A stretch of DNA of 7,140 nt, from the NCBI GenBank assembly GCA_016928495.1, contig JAFGKQ010000274.1, forward strand, positions 1-7,140, read 5' to 3'. The stretch comes from Candidatus Fermentibacterales bacterium. GTDB taxonomy: Bacteria > Fermentibacterota > Fermentibacteria > Fermentibacterales > JAFGKQ01. Below, piece by piece: positions 59-7,140 of this stretch (the stretch's first letter is position 1; every line of letters starts with the position of its first letter). The position numbers and the translations under genes are program-made. Below the pieces are notes generated by a model. The model saw only the letters and a program-made list of their open reading frames with translations. It was not told where the DNA came from and did not search any database.

Positions 59-448
59 GTGCTTCCCGTCTTGAGCGCTGCAGCGGGTATAGACATCATC
101 GAGAACGACCGCTTCGACTCCACGGCCGAGAGGCTGGGTCCGGGCTTGCTCGAGCGGCTGTTCACGGAGACAGAGAGGCAGTGGGCCGCGGGTCTTCCGG
201 CGTCTCGGCTCGCGGCGAACTTCGCAGCCAAGGAGGCTTTCCTGAAGGCGCTGGGCACCGGCCTGTCCAACGGCATGCGCTGGCGGGAGATCGAGCTTGT
301 CGAGCAGCAGCATGGCCCCCCTTCGCTGAGGGTGTCGGGCCGAGCGGCGGAGCTGCTTGCGGGAAGGCGAGTCAGCGTGTCGGTGTCCCGGACCTCCGAC
401 CTGTCGGTTGCCCTGGTCACCATCGGCTCGCCCGGAGGCGAATCGTGA
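59..448 (+). CDS. acpS: Holo-[acyl-carrier-protein] synthase (4'-phosphopantetheinyl transferase, AcpS type)
   Basis: Transfers the 4'-phosphopantetheine arm from CoA to a serine of apo-acyl carrier protein, activating it for fatty-acid synthesis in the cytoplasm. The 129-residue product has the usual AcpS length. It carries both family signatures: GIDIIENDRF at residues 10-19, whose Asp12 is the expected Mg-binding residue, and FAAKEAFLKALGTGL at 55-69, with Glu59 as the second metal ligand. The C-terminal strand (VSVSRTSDLSVALV, about 107-120) is also typical. GTG at 59 was chosen because a purine-rich Shine-Dalgarno stretch (46-58) lies directly before it. TTG at 71 would leave a more usual five residues before the GID motif and is the main alternative. 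The reading frame stays open to the left edge, so a start outside the window cannot be strictly excluded. The stop overlaps the nnr start by four bases, indicating translational coupling. Family assignment is firm; only the start is uncertain. Confidence 0.95.
   Translation: MLPVLSAAAGIDIIENDRFDSTAERLGPGLLERLFTETERQWAAGLPASRLAANFAAKEAFLKALGTGLSNGMRWREIELVEQQHGPPSLRVSGRAAELLAGRRVSVSVSRTSDLSVALVTIGSPGGES
434..438 (+). promoter_or_regulatory. Ribosome binding site of nnr
   Basis: A perfect GGAGG sits six bases before GTG 445, inside the end of acpS. It fixes the nnr start although the same frame is open for another 264 bases upstream. Confidence 0.8.
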
Positions 449-2001
449 GCTATTGGGTCACCCCGTCGGAGATGGCGGGGCTGGACAGGGTGACCATCGC
501 CAAGGGTGTCCCGGGCGAGGTGCTCATGGAGCGCGCGGGCGAGGCAATCGCAGCAGTGGCCGCCAGGATGATCCGCCCCGGCGAGGGTCCCGTGGAGGTA
601 TGGGCGGGTCCGGGCAACAATGGCGGAGATGGCTTCGTGGTCGCGCGACTGCTGCTGGAGCGGGGGTTCGGAGTCAGGGTGATAGCCGCCTTCGACAGGG
701 ACAGGCAGCTCCCCGAGGAGTCGGAGCAGAACAGGAGGCGCTTCGAGGACCTCGGGGGAGAGCTGTCCTACCAGTCCGACCACCGTCCGCTCCCGGGAGC
801 TCCCCCGGCGCTCATGGTCGACGCGCTCCTCGGCACCGGCTTCCGCGGCTACCTGAGGGACGACGCAGCCGAGGCGGCCGGCGTCATGAGGGGTCGCAGG
901 TGTCCCGTCCTGGCGGTGGACACTCCCTCAGGGCTCAACGGGGAGACAGGCGATGCCGACCCCGGCGCTGTAAGGGCGGACGTTACCGTCACCCTGGCCT
1001 GCCCGAAGATAGGGCTTCTGCTGCCTCCCGGATGCGCCCTCGTCGGGACGCTGATACTCGCCGACATCGGCATCGCTCCTCCCTCGAACGCCGACAGGCT
1101 GGTCATGGATGTCGACCTTGCGAGGGGTCTGCTGCCCAGAAGGCCCGTAGACGCTCACAAGGGCATCTTCGGCCGCGTGCTCCTGCTCGGCGGATGCGAG
1201 GAGATGCCCGGAGCCCCGATGCTCATGACTATGGGTGCGCTCAGAGCAGGGGCGGGGCTCGTAGAGCTCTGCGTCCCCCTTCCCGCTGCGCCCGCGGTGG
1301 CCGGACGGATTCCCGAAGCCCTGTTCAGCTACTTCCTCCCGGGCGACGTCACCTCGATGCCCGATCCCGAGTCGTTCACCTGCGCCGCTATCGGCCCGGG
1401 CATGGGGGACAGCGTCTCCACCAGGAAGGTCATGAGGCACATACTGACGAACTGGTCACTGCCCCTCGTCCTCGACGCCGACGCGCTCAACAGCCTGTCT
1501 GGCGATCTTGGCCTGCTCTCCGGCTACGGAAGCCCGCTCATCCTCACCCCACACCCCGGAGAGCTCCGACGCCTGACCGGAGAGGACAGCAAGGGGCTGA
1601 AAACGCGCTGGGAAGCCGCTTCAAGACTCGCGGAGGGCACGGGATCGGTCGTCGTCCTCAAGGGAAGGCCCTCCGCGGTGTTCCACCCTTCGGGAGGCAG
1701 GATCCTGATACCCTCTGGGAACAACGGGCTGGCGACCGGCGGAAGCGGGGATGTCCTCACGGGGATGATTGTCTCCCTGCTGGGCCAGGGGATGGACGCC
1801 GGCGACGCGGCAGCTCTCGGGGCCTACCTGCATGGCCTCGCTGCCGACATAGCGGTTTCCCGCACCTCCAGGCGATCGCTGATCCCCACGGATGTCGTCG
1901 CTGCGGTCGGAGCCGCCTACGCGCTGATCGAGGACACCCGCAACAACAGCCTGTTGCACGTGGAAGGGAGTTTCAATGGCCGGCTGTGGCATCACCCGTG
2001 A
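445..2001 (+). CDS. nnr: Bifunctional NAD(P)H-hydrate epimerase / ADP-dependent NAD(P)H-hydrate dehydratase
   Basis: Repairs NADHX and NADPHX, the damaged hydrated forms of NAD(P)H. The N-terminal YjeF/NnrE domain (about residues 1-215) interconverts R and S epimers; the C-terminal YjeF/NnrD domain (about 238-500) dehydrates the S form with ADP or ATP. The epimerase half shows GPGNNGGDGFVVAR (55-68), catalytic-type Asp126 in VDALLGTG, and DTPSGLNGETG (159-169). The dehydratase half starts with HKGIFGRVLLLGG (238-250), then has DADALN (344-349), LTPHPGEL (367-374), VLKG (404-407) and the nucleotide/active-site loop NNGLATGGSGDVLTGM (426-441), with Asp436 the expected catalytic base. At 518 residues it matches the fused bacterial form (about 500-515). 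The open frame extends back to 181, but GTG 445 is the right start: it has GGAGG six bases upstream, overlaps the acpS stop as GTGA, and begins the conserved domain. The last 26 bases overlap the HD gene. Confidence 0.96.
   Translation: MSYWVTPSEMAGLDRVTIAKGVPGEVLMERAGEAIAAVAARMIRPGEGPVEVWAGPGNNGGDGFVVARLLLERGFGVRVIAAFDRDRQLPEESEQNRRRFEDLGGELSYQSDHRPLPGAPPALMVDALLGTGFRGYLRDDAAEAAGVMRGRRCPVLAVDTPSGLNGETGDADPGAVRADVTVTLACPKIGLLLPPGCALVGTLILADIGIAPPSNADRLVMDVDLARGLLPRRPVDAHKGIFGRVLLLGGCEEMPGAPMLMTMGALRAGAGLVELCVPLPAAPAVAGRIPEALFSYFLPGDVTSMPDPESFTCAAIGPGMGDSVSTRKVMRHILTNWSLPLVLDADALNSLSGDLGLLSGYGSPLILTPHPGELRRLTGEDSKGLKTRWEAASRLAEGTGSVVVLKGRPSAVFHPSGGRILIPSGNNGLATGGSGDVLTGMIVSLLGQGMDAGDAAALGAYLHGLAADIAVSRTSRRSLIPTDVVAAVGAAYALIEDTRNNSLLHVEGSFNGRLWHHP
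1962..1970 (+). promoter_or_regulatory. Ribosome binding site of the HD-domain gene
   Basis: GGAAGGGAG lies five bases before ATG 1976, within the coding end of nnr. It supports the overlapping start rather than a later internal one. Confidence 0.75.
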
Positions 2002-2548
2002 GAGAGCCCTGACCTGGCTGTCCGAGTGCATCTCGAATACCAACCTCATCAAGCACTGTCTCGCCACCGAGGCCATAATGAGGAAGCTCGCCCTGGATCA
2101 GGAAAGGCCGGGGGAAGAAGAGGTCTGGGCGATGACCGGCCTTCTGCACGATCTGGACTACGAGAAGACCGAGAACGACTTCTCGAGGCACGGAGTGGAG
2201 ACTGCCGGCATGCTCGAGGGTCTGCTCCCCGACGAAGCCATTCGGGCCATCAGGTCACACAACGCCGAGAACAACGGATTTGCTAGGAGCACGGTTTTTG
2301 ACCATCTTCTCGCTGCCAGCGAGAACCTGACCGGGCTCATCACGGCCACCGCCCTCGTTCAGTCAGACAGGAAGCTCTCGGGGGTCGAGCCGGCTTCGGT
2401 GATCCGGAAGATGGGCAAGTCGGGGTTCGCGAGGTCGGTATCCAGGGACTGCATACGAGAGTGCGAGAAGGCTGGCTACAGCCTCGAGGACTTCGTGGCC
2501 ATCTCGCTGGAAGCCATGAAGGAGATATCGGACGAGCTCGGGCTCTGA
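1976..2548 (+). CDS. HD-superfamily predicted hydrolase (COG2316-like)
   Basis: A complete 190-residue HD-domain protein, probably a cytoplasmic metal-dependent phosphohydrolase with unknown substrate. Visible features are NLIKHCLATEAIMRKLA (23-39, His27), the HD doublet in GLLHDLDYEKT (55-65, His58-Asp59), RHGVETAGML (71-80) and AIRSHN (91-96, His95). These are followed by LAASENLTGLI (112-122) and an acidic C-terminus ending EAMKEISDELGL. This motif order and length match, from memory, the small uncharacterised group often annotated as HDIG-domain or predicted HD hydrolases. Where that group usually has an Asp before LTGL, this protein has Glu116, a conservative change at the likely last metal ligand. 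ATG 1976 has GGAAGGGAG five bases upstream and overlaps nnr by 26 bases, so the two are probably co-translated. Nothing here links its substrate to NAD(P)HX repair. It lacks the GGDEF, EAL or RelA domains that would suggest a signalling nucleotide. Confidence 0.9.
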   Translation: MAGCGITRERALTWLSECISNTNLIKHCLATEAIMRKLALDQERPGEEEVWAMTGLLHDLDYEKTENDFSRHGVETAGMLEGLLPDEAIRAIRSHNAENNGFARSTVFDHLLAASENLTGLITATALVQSDRKLSGVEPASVIRKMGKSGFARSVSRDCIRECEKAGYSLEDFVAISLEAMKEISDELGL

Positions 2549-2580: not shown

Positions 2581-3723
2581 TTGTTGAAAGTGCATGAGAG
2601 ACTGGATGAGCTCCGCCTGGAGACCTCCAGCCTGTCCTTCCGCAGAGGCAGGAGCCGTCTGGCGGAGTTCTCCTCGAGCTCCGATCCCGTGGAGGCCAGA
2701 GACCGCCTCCGGCTGGCGGGGCAGCTGCATCGCCTGACGGGAAGGTGCGGCAGGGTCTCGGTGCATTTCCCGGCTGACGCCAAGGACAAGAAGAGGCTCG
2801 AGGTCCTCGCCCAGGCCGTGCGGGACAACGGCCTCACGGTCTCCGCAGCCTATCCGGATCTGCTGATGCCCAGGCCAGGGAGCCATCTGGACCACAGGCT
2901 CGCTTTCGGCAGCCTGACCTCTCCCTACTCGGACGTGAGAGTGGCCTCCATCAACTTCGTAGACACGTGCCTGGGCATGATGCGGGTCCTCAAGTGCCGG
3001 CAGATAGTGCTATGCGTGCCGGACGGCGCCGACTCGCCGGGCGAGAAGAACCTCGTGGACATGCTCGACAGGATCCTGAACGGTCTCCGGCAGGTCAGCT
3101 TCAAGCTCCGCAAGAGCGAGTCCCTGCTTTTGGAGTACCGCCCCTTCGATCCCTCCTTCTATGCCTCCGCGGTGCCCGACTGGGGAACGGCATCCTGGTT
3201 GTGCAGGGAGACCGATCCTCTCTTCAGGGTCTCTCTCGACCTGGAGAGCCTGCTTCCGGGATCCAGCTTCGAGAGCAGTCTGGTGACGGCCGTGAGGTCG
3301 GGAATGGCCGGCAGGGTACGCCTGGCGGACTCCGTGCTCATGGGAGGGGGCCTGCCGGCGGGCAGCATCAACTCGGACACGCTGTTCCGGGTCTTCCTGT
3401 GCTGCCTGCAACTCGAGCGGGCCGGGCACATGAAGCTATCCGGAATGCCCTTCTCCGTCGCGGTCAACGCGATGGTGGGGGACGTGCTGGAGGTGAACCT
3501 GCAGGCGGTGGAGAACGTCGAGCTGGCGCTCGCGCGTGCGCTCCTGGTAGATCTCGAGGAGCTCGAGAAGGCTCAGAACAAGCCTGACCCGGCGATGGCG
3601 TCCAGGATCATGCGCGACGCCTTCATGACCGACGTCCGCCCCATAGTCAGGCGCTACAGAGAGACCAAGGGGCTTCCCCCGGATCCCCTCGAAGCATACA
3701 GGTCAGGCCAGGCACAGGCCTAG
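2581..3723 (+). CDS. L-rhamnose isomerase-like TIM-barrel protein, active site degenerate (probable pseudoenzyme)
   Basis: A 380-residue protein resembling Pseudomonas stutzeri-type L-rhamnose isomerase (xylose-isomerase-like TIM barrel, COG4952) over most of its length. Recognisable segments are RVSVHFPAD (58-66), FGSLTSP (109-115), VPDGADSPG (146-154), LLLEYRPFDPSFY (182-194), VPDWGTA (198-204) and a very family-like end: ALLVDLEELEKAQ (320-332), DAFMTDVRPI (346-355), PPDPLEAYR (366-374). Compared with the enzyme as I recall it, two metal ligands remain (Glu185, Asp220). The others are changed: catalytic His257 becomes Ser223, His281 becomes Arg247, the Asp289-291 run becomes Gly255-257, Lys221 becomes Arg187 and Asp327 aligns near Ala294/Asn296. 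The open frame and retained scaffold argue against decay, so a non-catalytic or altered role is inferred. The N-terminus is about 40 residues shorter than the enzyme's. An in-frame TGA at 2572 limits the start to TTG 2581, TTG 2584 or GTG 2590; TTG 2584 has the best spacing. Confidence 0.8.
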   Translation: MLKVHERLDELRLETSSLSFRRGRSRLAEFSSSSDPVEARDRLRLAGQLHRLTGRCGRVSVHFPADAKDKKRLEVLAQAVRDNGLTVSAAYPDLLMPRPGSHLDHRLAFGSLTSPYSDVRVASINFVDTCLGMMRVLKCRQIVLCVPDGADSPGEKNLVDMLDRILNGLRQVSFKLRKSESLLLEYRPFDPSFYASAVPDWGTASWLCRETDPLFRVSLDLESLLPGSSFESSLVTAVRSGMAGRVRLADSVLMGGGLPAGSINSDTLFRVFLCCLQLERAGHMKLSGMPFSVAVNAMVGDVLEVNLQAVENVELALARALLVDLEELEKAQNKPDPAMASRIMRDAFMTDVRPIVRRYRETKGLPPDPLEAYRSGQAQA

Positions 3724-3737
3724 AGGCAGGCCTTGCC
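3711..3737. terminator. Hairpin at the convergent gene junction, possible bidirectional terminator
   Basis: GGCA (3711-3714) and AGGCCT (3716-3721) pair with AGGCCT (3728-3733) and TGCC (3734-3737). This gives a ten-pair, mostly G+C stem with one bulged C (3715) and a six-base loop. It spans the overlapping stop codons of the isomerase-like gene and iorB, where a terminator serving both operons would be expected. No run of T follows on either strand, so it is not a classical intrinsic terminator. It may pause polymerase, block read-through between convergent transcripts or protect 3' ends. Confidence 0.45.
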
Positions 3738-4307
3738 CCTCTCGAAAGCCTCCATGTTGACCCCCAGCGCCTTTGCCGGTACCCTGCGCTCTATCGCAGT
3801 CATCCAGCTCTGCTCGCCGATCATCGGCATCAGCGTCGATGCTGCGCCCAGCATCACCAGGTTCACTACTCTTGTGTTACCCAGCTCGCGCGCTATGGCG
3901 AGGGCCGGGATCACCCGGTAGGGGGCGTTGCGCGAGGCCAGCCCGGCCTCGACGTCCGGATACCGGGCGGCCCCGATGTTGACGGTCACCGGGTTGATCC
4001 TGATGTCCGGGATCAGAAGCGTTCCGTCCACCCGCATGTAGTGCAGCCAGCGGAGCCCCTCCATCTGCTCCATGCCCAGAACGACATCGGCGGTCCCTTC
4101 CTCTATGAGGGGGCTGAAGACCCTGCTGCCGAACCGGACATGGCTGGTCACGCTTCCGCCGCGCTGGGCCATTCCATGGACCTCGCTCTTCTTGATGTCC
4201 ATCCCCGACGCCCGCGCCGCCCCGCTGAGCACCTCGCTCGCGAGAAGGATGCCCTGACCGCCGGTGCCGCAGATCAGAACGTTGGTCACCTCGGCGGCCG
4301 TCTTCAT
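3720..4307 (-). CDS. iorB: Indolepyruvate:ferredoxin oxidoreductase, beta subunit
   Basis: The small (gamma-domain type) subunit of indolepyruvate:ferredoxin oxidoreductase, working with IorA to decarboxylate aryl-pyruvates oxidatively to aryl-acetyl-CoA while reducing ferredoxin. The 195-residue product has the family's usual length. It shows GTGGQGILLASEVL (14-27) and SEVHGMAQRGGSVTSHVRFG (41-60), the two hallmark segments of this 2-oxoacid:acceptor oxidoreductase domain. It also has LGAASTLMP (153-161) and the C-terminal VPAKALGVNMEAFERG (176-191). The frame extends 18 codons further upstream, but ATG 4307 is preferred. It forms an ATGA overlap with the iorA stop, has GGAGGG six bases ahead, and the residues after it begin the conserved domain. 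Its stop codon overlaps that of the convergent isomerase-like gene. No expected residue is missing, so it should be functional. Confidence 0.95.
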   Translation of the reverse strand: MKTAAEVTNVLICGTGGQGILLASEVLSGAARASGMDIKKSEVHGMAQRGGSVTSHVRFGSRVFSPLIEEGTADVVLGMEQMEGLRWLHYMRVDGTLLIPDIRINPVTVNIGAARYPDVEAGLASRNAPYRVIPALAIARELGNTRVVNLVMLGAASTLMPMIGEQSWMTAIERRVPAKALGVNMEAFERGKACL

Positions 4308-6088
4308 CGGGCACCCTCCATGTCCTTGCTGAGCGCCCCGGTCGGGCACACCTGCACGCACAGATTGCAGTCGGGATAGCAGAGGAGCCCGCTTATCTCG
4401 GGCTTCTCGTCAACGAAGCTGATAGCCGGACATCCCACCCGCATGCATGCCCTGCAGCTCACGCACTTCTCCGGATCGAGCCGGGCCACGGCCCTGCCGG
4501 ACGGTTTCCCGATCATTATGCACGGCCTGCGGGTGATTATCACCGAGGGCTCTTCCCTCGACAGCTCCTCCCTGAGGGCCTTCTCCATCTCCTGCAGGTC
4601 GTGTGGGTCCACGGTTCGAACATGCTTCACGCCGCAAGCTCTGCAGAGTTGCTCGAAATCGACCCTGGGCGCTGGCTCGCCCCGAAGGTCGAACCCCGTG
4701 GCGGGATGCTGCTGCCCTCCCGTCATAGCCGTGATGCCGTTGTCCATGATCATCACGGTCCCGGTCCCGCCGTTGTAGACCATGTCTATGAGGCCGGTGA
4801 TGCCCGAGTGTATGAAGGTCGAGTCGCCTATGGCGGCGACCAGCTTGCCGGTTGCCTCCCGGCCCACAGCCTTCTCCAGCCCGTTGAGGACCGTGACCGC
4901 CCCGCCCATGCAGATCACGGTCTCCAGGGCCTCGTGAGGCGGCATCAGTCCAAGCGTGTAGCACCCGATGTCTCCGGTGGAGCTGGCCTTTATCTTGCTG
5001 AGGGCGTAGAAAGCGCCTCTGTGCGGGCAGCCGGGGCAGAGAGCGGGGGGCCGCGCAGGGACCTCCGCCCTGACGAAGGGGGTCTGTGCCGGATCGCCTT
5101 CTCCGAGCCCCCTCCTCACGATGCCGGGCTCCAGCTCGCCCTCGATCGGTATGCGCTCCTTGCCCTCCACGGGAATCAGGAACCTGGCCCTTATCTGCTC
5201 CTGCAGGTAGGGATCCCCTTCCTCGACCACGACCAGCTTCTCGACGCTCTCGATGAACCGCTCGATCAGCTTCCAGGGCAGCGGATTGGTCATGCCGAGC
5301 TTCAGAACGCTGGCTGAGGGGAGAACCTCCTTCACGTACTGGTAGGATATCCCGCTTGTGACGATGCCGAGCGATGGGTCTCCCTTCTCGATCCTGTTGA
5401 AGGGAGAGCCGTCGCCGTATTCCTCGAGCTCGAGCATCCTCTTCTCCACCCTGGAGTGGAGCTTCCTTGCATGAGCCGGAATAGGAACCCTCTTCTGGAT
5501 GTTCCTCTCGTAGCCCTTGACCTCGACGGCTCTGCGGGGACCCAGCTCCACAAGGCTCTTGGAGTGGCTGATCCGAGTCGTGAGCCTCAGCATGACAGGG
5601 GCGTCGAAGCGCTCCGAGATCTCCAGAGCCTCCCCCACCATCAGCTTCGCCTCGTTGCTGTCAGCCGGCTCGAGCATCGGCACCTTGGCGGCCCTGGCGA
5701 TGTTCCTGTTGTCCTGCTCGTTCTGCGACGAGTGCATCCCGGGATCATCGGCGGACACTATCACAACGCCCCCCGTGGCGCCGATGTAGCTGAGAGTGAA
5801 CAGGGGGTCCGCCGCTACGTTGAGCCCGACGTGCTTCATGGCGGTAAGGGCCCTGGCGCCCCCGAACGACGCCCCGGCGACGGTTTCCAGGGCCACCTTC
5901 TCGTTCGGCGCCCACTGGCTGCCGATCTCCGGGTAGCTCTCTCCGATGGCCTCGAGTATCTCGGTCGAGGGCGTGCCCGGGTAGGCGGAGGCGAAATGCA
6001 CTCCGTACTCCCAGGCGCCGCGCGCCACCGCCTCGTTTCCCGACAGGAACTCGACTCCGGATTCGGGAATGCGTTTTGCTCTGTCCAT
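4304..6088 (-). CDS. iorA: Indolepyruvate:ferredoxin oxidoreductase, alpha subunit
   Basis: The large, thiamine-diphosphate and iron-sulfur subunit of indolepyruvate:ferredoxin oxidoreductase. It converts indolepyruvate, phenylpyruvate and related 2-oxoacids plus CoA to acyl-CoA, CO2 and reduced ferredoxin. The 594-residue product has the full family architecture. The N-terminal pyrimidine-binding domain has LSGNEAVARGAWEYGV (15-30) and YPGTPSTEILEAIG (36-49). A middle domain follows, then CPGCPHRGAFYAL (351-363) and GDIGCYTLG (372-380). The diphosphate-binding region starts GDSTFIHSGITGLIDM (421-436) and continues to MDNGITAMTGG (448-458). The C-terminus is a two-cluster ferredoxin domain. 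Its first cluster has Cys542, 545, 548 and 553, and its second has Cys570, 574, 577 and 581, so all eight ligands are present. ATG 6088 has AAGGGA seven bases ahead. The gene starts 19 bases after the kinase stop and overlaps iorB by four bases, so the three are one transcription unit. Confidence 0.97.
   Translation of the reverse strand: MDRAKRIPESGVEFLSGNEAVARGAWEYGVHFASAYPGTPSTEILEAIGESYPEIGSQWAPNEKVALETVAGASFGGARALTAMKHVGLNVAADPLFTLSYIGATGGVVIVSADDPGMHSSQNEQDNRNIARAAKVPMLEPADSNEAKLMVGEALEISERFDAPVMLRLTTRISHSKSLVELGPRRAVEVKGYERNIQKRVPIPAHARKLHSRVEKRMLELEEYGDGSPFNRIEKGDPSLGIVTSGISYQYVKEVLPSASVLKLGMTNPLPWKLIERFIESVEKLVVVEEGDPYLQEQIRARFLIPVEGKERIPIEGELEPGIVRRGLGEGDPAQTPFVRAEVPARPPALCPGCPHRGAFYALSKIKASSTGDIGCYTLGLMPPHEALETVICMGGAVTVLNGLEKAVGREATGKLVAAIGDSTFIHSGITGLIDMVYNGGTGTVMIMDNGITAMTGGQQHPATGFDLRGEPAPRVDFEQLCRACGVKHVRTVDPHDLQEMEKALREELSREEPSVIITRRPCIMIGKPSGRAVARLDPEKCVSCRACMRVGCPAISFVDEKPEISGLLCYPDCNLCVQVCPTGALSKDMEGAR
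4314..4319 (-). promoter_or_regulatory. Ribosome binding site of iorB
   Basis: GGAGGG on the minus strand is six bases before the ATG at 4307-4305, inside the 3' end of iorA. It decides the start in favour of the short form beginning MKTAAEV. Confidence 0.8.
4346..4465 (-). other. Two [4Fe-4S] ferredoxin motifs in IorA
   Basis: Within iorA, the first motif is CxxCxxCxxxxCP (CVSCRACMRVGCP) and the second is CxxxCxxCxxxCP (CYPDCNLCVQVCP). Both are complete, so the electron path from thiamine diphosphate to ferredoxin looks intact. Confidence 0.9.
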
Positions 6089-6095
6089 CCGCAGG

Positions 6096-6101
6096 TCCCT
6101 T
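6096..6101 (-). promoter_or_regulatory. Ribosome binding site of iorA
   Basis: AAGGGA on the minus strand lies seven bases before ATG 6088, in the 19-base gap after the kinase stop. The gap is too short for a promoter, so iorA depends on upstream transcription. Confidence 0.65.
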
Positions 6102-6107
6102 CAGCGC

Positions 6108-7140
6108 TCAGGAATAGACTCCGGGCTGCTCCAGCCCGTCCATCACCCGGAGAACACCCCTCACCAGAGCCTCCAGCTCGCACTCACCGGGGAACGCATG
6201 CACCGGGGCTATGAAGGAGAGGCTGTCATCCAGTCGTTCGACTATCCAGTCGTTGTAGGCCATCCCTCCGGTCACCGCGATGGCGTCCACCTTCCCCTTC
6301 AGCGCCGCAGCCATGCCTCCGGCCTCCTTTGCGAACTGGTAGACCATCGCCCGCATGACGAGATCTGCCTTCAGGTCTCCCTCTTCCTGCGCTCTGCGCA
6401 GGGCCTCCGCAGCATCATCCGTTCCCAGGTAGGCCATGAGGCCGCCCTTCTTGAGCAGCATCTTCTTCAGGTCGGCATGGGTGTGCTCCCCGGACGTGCA
6501 GAGCCTGACCAGCCCGGTCGTGGGTAGGGAGCCGACGCGCTGCGCGCTGAAAGGTCCACCGTCGTTCGCGTTGTTCGTGTCTATCATCCTGCCTGCCCTG
6601 ATGGCGTTCACGGAGACTCCGCTGCCGAGGTGCAGCACGATCAGGTTCAGCTCCGGCAGGGGCCTTCCGAGCTTGGAGGCAAGCTTGTAGGCGACCATCC
6701 GTATGTTCAGCGCATGGCTGAGGCTCAGCCTCGGCAGGAGAGGGTGCCCGGAGAGCCTGGCCTCATCGATCATCTCGTCGACGCAGACCGGGTCCACGAA
6801 GTAGCTCGGTATGCCCAGGGGCCCTGCAATGGACCAGGCCAGAGGAGCGCCGAGGTTGGAGGGGTGGTCGGCCTGCAGCGTGGATCCCTCCCGGATGTCA
6901 TCGAGCAGCTTGTCGTTCACCTCGTAGGTCCCGCTCTCGAGGGACTTGAAGGTGCCTCCGCGTCCCACAGTCGCGGCCAGAGCGGAGAGCTCGACCTGCC
7001 GCTCCGAGAGGGCTTCCAGGACGAGGCTCTTCCTGTAGTCGAGCTGAGCGAAGGTCGACCCGAAGGAGGCCAGATCCTCCGGGGCATGCACGACCGAGGT
7101 CTCGAACACGGGCTCGTCGTTGCTGTACAGACCGAACTTC
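6108..7140 (-). CDS. buk: Butyrate kinase family (butyrate / branched-chain or aryl-acyl phosphate kinase), 5' end missing
   Basis: An acetokinase-superfamily carboxylate kinase that makes ATP from an acyl-phosphate and ADP in fermentation. The frame runs off the right edge: codons at 7139-7110 read KFGLYSNDEP, continuing the family's N-terminal phosphate-binding NPGSTSTK motif, most of which lies outside. The GTG at 7109 is therefore an internal valine. About 343 residues are visible and the family has about 355-360, so roughly 13-15 are missing. Visible signatures are DPVCVDEM, SHALNIRMVAYKLASKLG, HLGSGVSVNA (bases 6603-6632), DTNNANDGGPFSAQRVGSLP, VTGGMAYN (bases 6252-6275) and a C-terminal PGECELEALVRGVLRV. 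The motifs match butyrate kinase better than acetate kinase, which is longer with different signatures. Co-transcription with iorAB suggests that the real substrate could be arylacetyl-phosphate or a branched acyl-phosphate; this is inference from neighbours. Confidence 0.93.
   Translation of the reverse strand, partial: KFGLYSNDEPVFETSVVHAPEDLASFGSTFAQLDYRKSLVLEALSERQVELSALAATVGRGGTFKSLESGTYEVNDKLLDDIREGSTLQADHPSNLGAPLAWSIAGPLGIPSYFVDPVCVDEMIDEARLSGHPLLPRLSLSHALNIRMVAYKLASKLGRPLPELNLIVLHLGSGVSVNAIRAGRMIDTNNANDGGPFSAQRVGSLPTTGLVRLCTSGEHTHADLKKMLLKKGGLMAYLGTDDAAEALRRAQEEGDLKADLVMRAMVYQFAKEAGGMAAALKGKVDAIAVTGGMAYNDWIVERLDDSLSFIAPVHAFPGECELEALVRGVLRVMDGLEQPGVYS

Follow-up and report, generated by a model that had tools for sequence, protein, structure and literature searches.

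Why is a protein homologous to a sugar isomerase, with most of the expected active-site residues replaced, encoded at the end of a housekeeping operon? The question is raised by a gene of Candidatus Fermentibacterota, a bacterial phylum with little study so far. The DNA stretch that we analyzed, hereafter the window, is an entire 7140-base contig (G000:C36) of a 2.3-Mb genome that is 81% complete, and the relatives of this genome that bear the gene are Candidatus Fermentibacterota/Sabulitectum assemblies. The encoded protein resembles the P. stutzeri-type L-rhamnose isomerase (RhaI) and is called RhaI-like below.

Gene context and rhamnose genes

The following genes were placed in the window:

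59-448, plus strand: holo-ACP synthase (acpS)
445-2001, plus strand: bifunctional NAD(P)HX epimerase/dehydratase (nnr)
1976-2548, plus strand: HD-domain (HDIG) phosphohydrolase gene, overlapping nnr and just upstream of the RhaI-like gene
2581-3723, plus strand: RhaI-like pseudoenzyme gene (380 amino acids, TTG start, TAG stop), assigned from profile and structure matches, orthologues and a model
3720-4361, minus strand: indolepyruvate oxidoreductase beta (iorB), convergent, at the right-hand syntenic border

The RhaI-like frame is coding from 2581 to 3720, with its TAG stop at 3721-3723. The sequence GGTGAGGG lies just before the TTG start, which is consistent with the starts of the orthologues. 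Promoter and terminator scans gave no result. The stop codons of the convergent RhaI-like and iorB genes share one CTAG (3720-3723), and the start of the HD gene overlaps the 3′ end of nnr (1976-2001), which suggests translational coupling.

Wherever the contig suffices, the RhaI-like gene is the last gene of an operon ordered rpsF-ssb-(rpsR)-membrane protein-rplI-tsaD-acpS-nnr-(HD), in which rpsR and the membrane protein were named by eye. The gene thus stands in a housekeeping and not a rhamnose context, at the end of an operon and away from rhamnose genes as had been proposed from the window alone, and the operon, running from rpsF to the RhaI-like gene, extends beyond what the window shows. 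The suggestion that the HD gene might be a conserved neighbor held in part: it is a usual but not an obligate one. The operon of Sabulitectum (genus g8) does without it, and many genomes of genus g2 retain it while lacking the RhaI-like gene, so that an obligate partnership is not supported. In Sabulitectum (L031, L027, L026, and other g8 loci), the nearest HD homolog shares 29-36% identity and lies on another contig.

Rhamnose chemistry is encoded elsewhere in the same genome. Contig C3 (L147 2670-7702) carries a complete L-rhamnose operon with a sodium:solute symporter, a rhamnulokinase (rhaB), an E. coli-type rhaA, and rhaD. Its RhaA (G000:C3 3476-4753) scored 622 bits against NF002203 (cut-off 572), matched 3p14 with an E-value of 9e-152, and possesses all of the LDTGH, WDSDH, and LDFFDA motifs, while the rhamnulose-1-phosphate aldolase scored 232 bits against NF002963 (cut-off 170). 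A recognized rhamnulokinase is missing in most of the other genomes with the RhaI-like gene. Hence, neither the location nor the distribution of the RhaI-like gene ties it to rhamnose use. Two genus g8 genomes (G013:C52:4730-6094 and G017:C131:14547-15914) encode a rhamnulokinase-like gene, with no match to RhaA or to an intact RhaI.

Homology, predicted fold, and metal-site residues

The RhaI profile TIGR02635 matched the RhaI-like protein over its full length with 196.8 bits, far below the curated NCBIfam cut-off of 531, which was exceeded in none of the 42 phylum genomes; TIGR02629 gave 127 bits. The best solved match found with phmmer was P. stutzeri RhaI (3itl/2hcv, E-value of 8e-34, residues 17-376). 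Structure prediction agreed with this assignment, as the AlphaFold model of the window protein (pTM 0.85) was closest to P. stutzeri RhaI (Z 41.5, rmsd 2.7, 367 residues), as was that of the Sabulitectum orthologue (pTM 0.88; Z 44.0, rmsd 2.2, 365 residues), whose input alignment contained RhaI sequences. Both models scored lower against RhaA (Z 31-34) and xylose isomerase (Z 29-33), and the predicted fold is that of the RhaI barrel. The RhaI-like protein shares with P. stutzeri-type RhaI (TIGR02635/TIGR02629; 2hcv, 3itl) full-length homology, a (beta/alpha)8 barrel with C-terminal helices, the structural motifs DG..PG and DWG, and Asp254. In contrast, E. coli-type RhaA (TIGR01748; 1d8w, 3p14) has the same superfamily fold but is a separate family, with 10-16% identity in the structural alignment, and unlike the RhaI-like protein it sits in a rhaB-rhaA-rhaD operon and keeps its site motifs intact.

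From the alignment and general knowledge, we take the structural metal, in P. stutzeri numbering, to be bound by Glu219, Asp254, His281, and Asp327 and the catalytic metal by His257, Asp289, and Asp291, with Lys221 and His101 contacting the sugar. In the solved L. rhamnosus L-RhI, one metal is held by Glu, Asp, His, and Asp, the second by His, Asp, and Asp, and a Lys and a His touch the sugar (PMC10908623); the assignment of the structural metal site was carried over from this structure. The corresponding codons, all on the plus strand, are:

3133-3135: codon 185, Glu at the RhaI Glu219 position; E, D, G, T, or N in the orthologues
3238-3240: codon 220, Asp at the RhaI Asp254 position, the sole invariant relic of the metal site
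3247-3249: codon 223, Ser replacing His257 (RhaI alignment, orthologue table)
3319-3321: codon 247, Arg replacing His281 (RhaI alignment, orthologue table)
3343-3351: codons 255-257, Gly-Gly-Gly replacing Asp289-291 (alignment; loop pLDDT below 50 in both models)
3460-3462: codon 294, Ala replacing Asp327 (RhaI alignment, orthologue table)

In addition, R187 takes the place of Lys221, and N296 lies two residues beyond A294. The alignment to P. stutzeri RhaI, a match far above chance, thus reproduced the residue map that the earlier note had drawn by eye.

The seven metal ligands and Lys221 were intact in 41 of 43 RhaI homologs sampled in other lineages (26 of 28 in one set and all 15 in another, where L164 repeats the gene of L022). 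The two exceptions, both in the set of 28, were a His281-to-Asp replacement and a distant, partly aligned sequence. Among the Fermentibacterota, Asp254 was the only metal ligand kept throughout the 20 full-length orthologues: position 221 is R, K, S, or H; 257 is S, A, or C; 281 is R, A, T, V, or I; 289 is M, Q, or G; 327 is A, G, R, or K; and the Asp289-291 run reads M or Q, then G, then a variable residue. Neither the structural site nor the catalytic site with its lysine is therefore retained. Trp104 is also lacking, and Glu219 and Phe131 are gone in most members.

These data split the earlier claims about the site. Both Glu185 and Asp220 remain in the window protein, as had been stated, but only the latter is invariant, and the Ser/Arg/Gly-Gly-Gly set, whose conservation had been an open point, is peculiar to the window sequence. 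A site rebuilt from these residues is not supported, because the named positions vary among orthologues. The mean rate rank of the catalytic columns (changes on the tree) rose from 0.08 in RhaI, within the slowest tenth, to 0.66 in the Fermentibacterota family, above the average rate, which argues for relaxed constraint at these columns; the replacements are drift and not a new conserved set. Judged from these residues, the RhaI-like protein very probably no longer isomerizes sugars.

Descent and maintenance of the family

Orthologues were found as a single copy in 21 of the 42 phylum genomes, in every genus except g2 and g9; outside genus g2, 21 of 23 genomes carry one intact copy. The gene is absent from all 19 g2 genomes, from the single g9 genome, whose contig stops inside nnr, and from one genome that is 68% complete. 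As orthologues occur in many separate assemblies, an assembly artefact was rejected. No frameshift or internal stop was found in any full-length orthologue, dN/dS in close pairs was 0.01-0.09, similar to the values for tsaD, acpS, and nnr from these genomes, and 76 columns are invariant among orthologues just 44-51% identical to the window protein.

In a tree built without the catalytic columns, the Fermentibacterota family formed one clade (support 100/98) on a stem of 1.41 changes per site, and the order within the clade agreed with the genome families; the program warned about this tree, in which long branches join two distant outgroup rows. A scan of 84,980 species with window peptides, a method that detects close relatives only, returned Fermentibacterota alone. 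Several hundred other genomes (343 plus overlapping G322 relatives) yielded only RhaI homologs, and among those checked the site was intact in nearly all. More distant family members outside the phylum may exist, since the peptide scan reaches close relatives only. Going by these sequences, selection maintains the protein overall, and the family has a single origin.

The absence from genus g2 is a clean secondary loss: a tblastn search with E-values up to 1 for a decayed remnant gave nothing above chance-level fragments. The RhaI-like gene is therefore dispensable in this genus and not essential phylum-wide.

Work on pseudoenzymes has gone furthest with kinases and phosphatases. In general, pseudoenzymes lack conserved catalytic motifs while fold and selection are maintained (PMC10211241), and the RhaI-like protein is alike in each respect: it is an enzyme homolog without the catalytic motifs, it keeps its predicted fold, and it is upheld by selection. 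No RhaI-family pseudoenzyme was found in the literature searched. The earlier note is thus borne out where it read a maintained pseudoenzyme and not a decaying gene (intact orthologues in 21 genomes, low dN/dS without frameshifts, kept position, and RhaI fold) and is unsupported where it allowed for a rebuilt site of the named residues. The locus offers a clean pseudoenzyme case in a sugar-isomerase barrel, where genomes suffice to read that the site was lost, that the family arose once, that it has been maintained, and that one genus secondarily lost it.

Shifted conservation and candidate functions

Relative to RhaI, the largest gains of constraint in the family fell within one region:

3052-3225, plus strand: codons 158-215, comprising helix alpha4, the RKSE loop, beta5, helix alpha5 (WGTAxWLCRET), and the following loop

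The newly conserved segments are 158-180 and 201-215. Helix alpha5 showed 0.27 changes per site in the family vs. 8.36 in RhaI, the RKSE loop (176-180) 1.2 vs. 10.2, and helix alpha4 2.2 vs. 9.1. The rank shift of the two segments, a region chosen after seeing the data, was equaled by 2 of 362 circular shifts. In a TIM barrel, such helices and alpha-to-beta loops are on the outside, opposite the catalytic mouth. Conservation has thus moved to alpha4/alpha5, which secondary-structure topology, the sole basis for judging surface patches, places outside the pocket, and we propose this segment as a candidate interaction surface.

Our preferred explanation, to which we give a probability of about 60%, is that the RhaI-like protein is a phylum-specific pseudoenzyme derived from a P. 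stutzeri-type RhaI whose retained function is most likely the binding of a partner. Before the sampled Fermentibacterota split, an ancestral RhaI would have become fixed in a single event as the last gene of the rpsF-ssb-rplI-tsaD-acpS-nnr-HD operon. Sequences and models show that both metal sites and the catalytic lysine disappeared, with the barrel and C-terminal helices retained; with these residues, the protein would be unable to carry out the metal-mediated hydride shift. Docking of a partner protein or nucleic acid would take place on the outer surface formed by helix alpha4, the RKSE loop, and helix alpha5 and might be tuned by a ligand lodged in what is left of the catalytic-face loops, and the gene order suggests that the protein would be made in step with a growth-linked operon. 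A partner-binding or regulatory role is probable, and the alpha4/alpha5 region could serve self-assembly instead of a foreign partner. The broader scenario, the recruitment of a sugar isomerase to a ribosomal/tRNA-modification housekeeping operon and its conversion to either a growth-linked binding protein with a new, conserved outer docking surface or an enzyme of entirely different, metal-free chemistry, we put at slightly below an even chance.

The invariant polar residues of the catalytic face, which might mark a ligand site or an active site that has moved, give some weight to another reading, that of an enzyme with different chemistry on the RhaI barrel, metal-independent or with a moved site (D220, D148/D151, D250, R106, R22). 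The catalytic-face loops are conserved above the family average (rank 0.44) and hold both old (D148, D200, D220) and family-specific (R22, R106, D151, D250) invariant residues, with E155/K156/N157 nearly invariant. However, the barrel-strand positions once responsible for the chemistry are relaxed (strand rank 0.58 vs. 0.33 in RhaI), the former ligand positions are free to vary, the catalytic-face loops, including the beta7 loop (site of Asp289-291 in RhaI; pLDDT below 50 in both models), were modeled with low confidence, and R298, family-specific and found in all other members, is Met in the window protein. We consider such an enzyme unlikely, though it is the leading alternative.

A sensor in which the old pocket binds a sugar or sugar-phosphate and signals by conformational change appears improbable: of the RhaI substrate contacts, His101 persists in 13 and Trp179 in 15 of the 18 members compared, but both are lost in several orthologues, Trp179 is Cys in the window protein, Trp104, Phe131, Lys221, and His257 are mostly gone, and the operon context offers no sugar genes.

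An active, divergent L-rhamnose isomerase would fit the full-length homology and fold, but we rejected it as barely credible on the residue table, where one Asp is all that is conserved of the metal-ligand set, on the separate rhamnose operon of the window genome, with rhaB, an intact E. coli-type rhaA, and rhaD, which weakens this obvious alternative, and on the lack of a recognized rhamnulokinase in most genomes bearing the gene. A decaying relic without function, compatible with the loss in g2 and the drifting active-site positions, is equally hard to credit and was rejected as contradicted by dN/dS, the intact frames, and the 76 invariant columns.

The assignment matters for genome annotation, as homology-based pipelines could label this gene L-rhamnose isomerase in over 20 Fermentibacterota genomes, which would then be falsely credited with rhamnose metabolism.

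In genus g2, HD or nnr either joins iorB-iorA-buk directly (L116, L119) or is separated from this block by unrelated genes, which gives the junction the look of a hot spot of gene replacement. The replacement genes (L113 12395-13290, L114 3305-4180, L115 4710-5220, and L120 3130-4590) were recognized by eye from motifs as SAM-methyltransferase-like, a BrnT/BrnA-like toxin-antitoxin-like pair, or radical-SAM-like. The iorB-iorA-butyrate kinase block (3720-7140, minus strand), which forms the right-hand syntenic border and adjoins the operon in g2 as well, is compatible with amino-acid fermentation.
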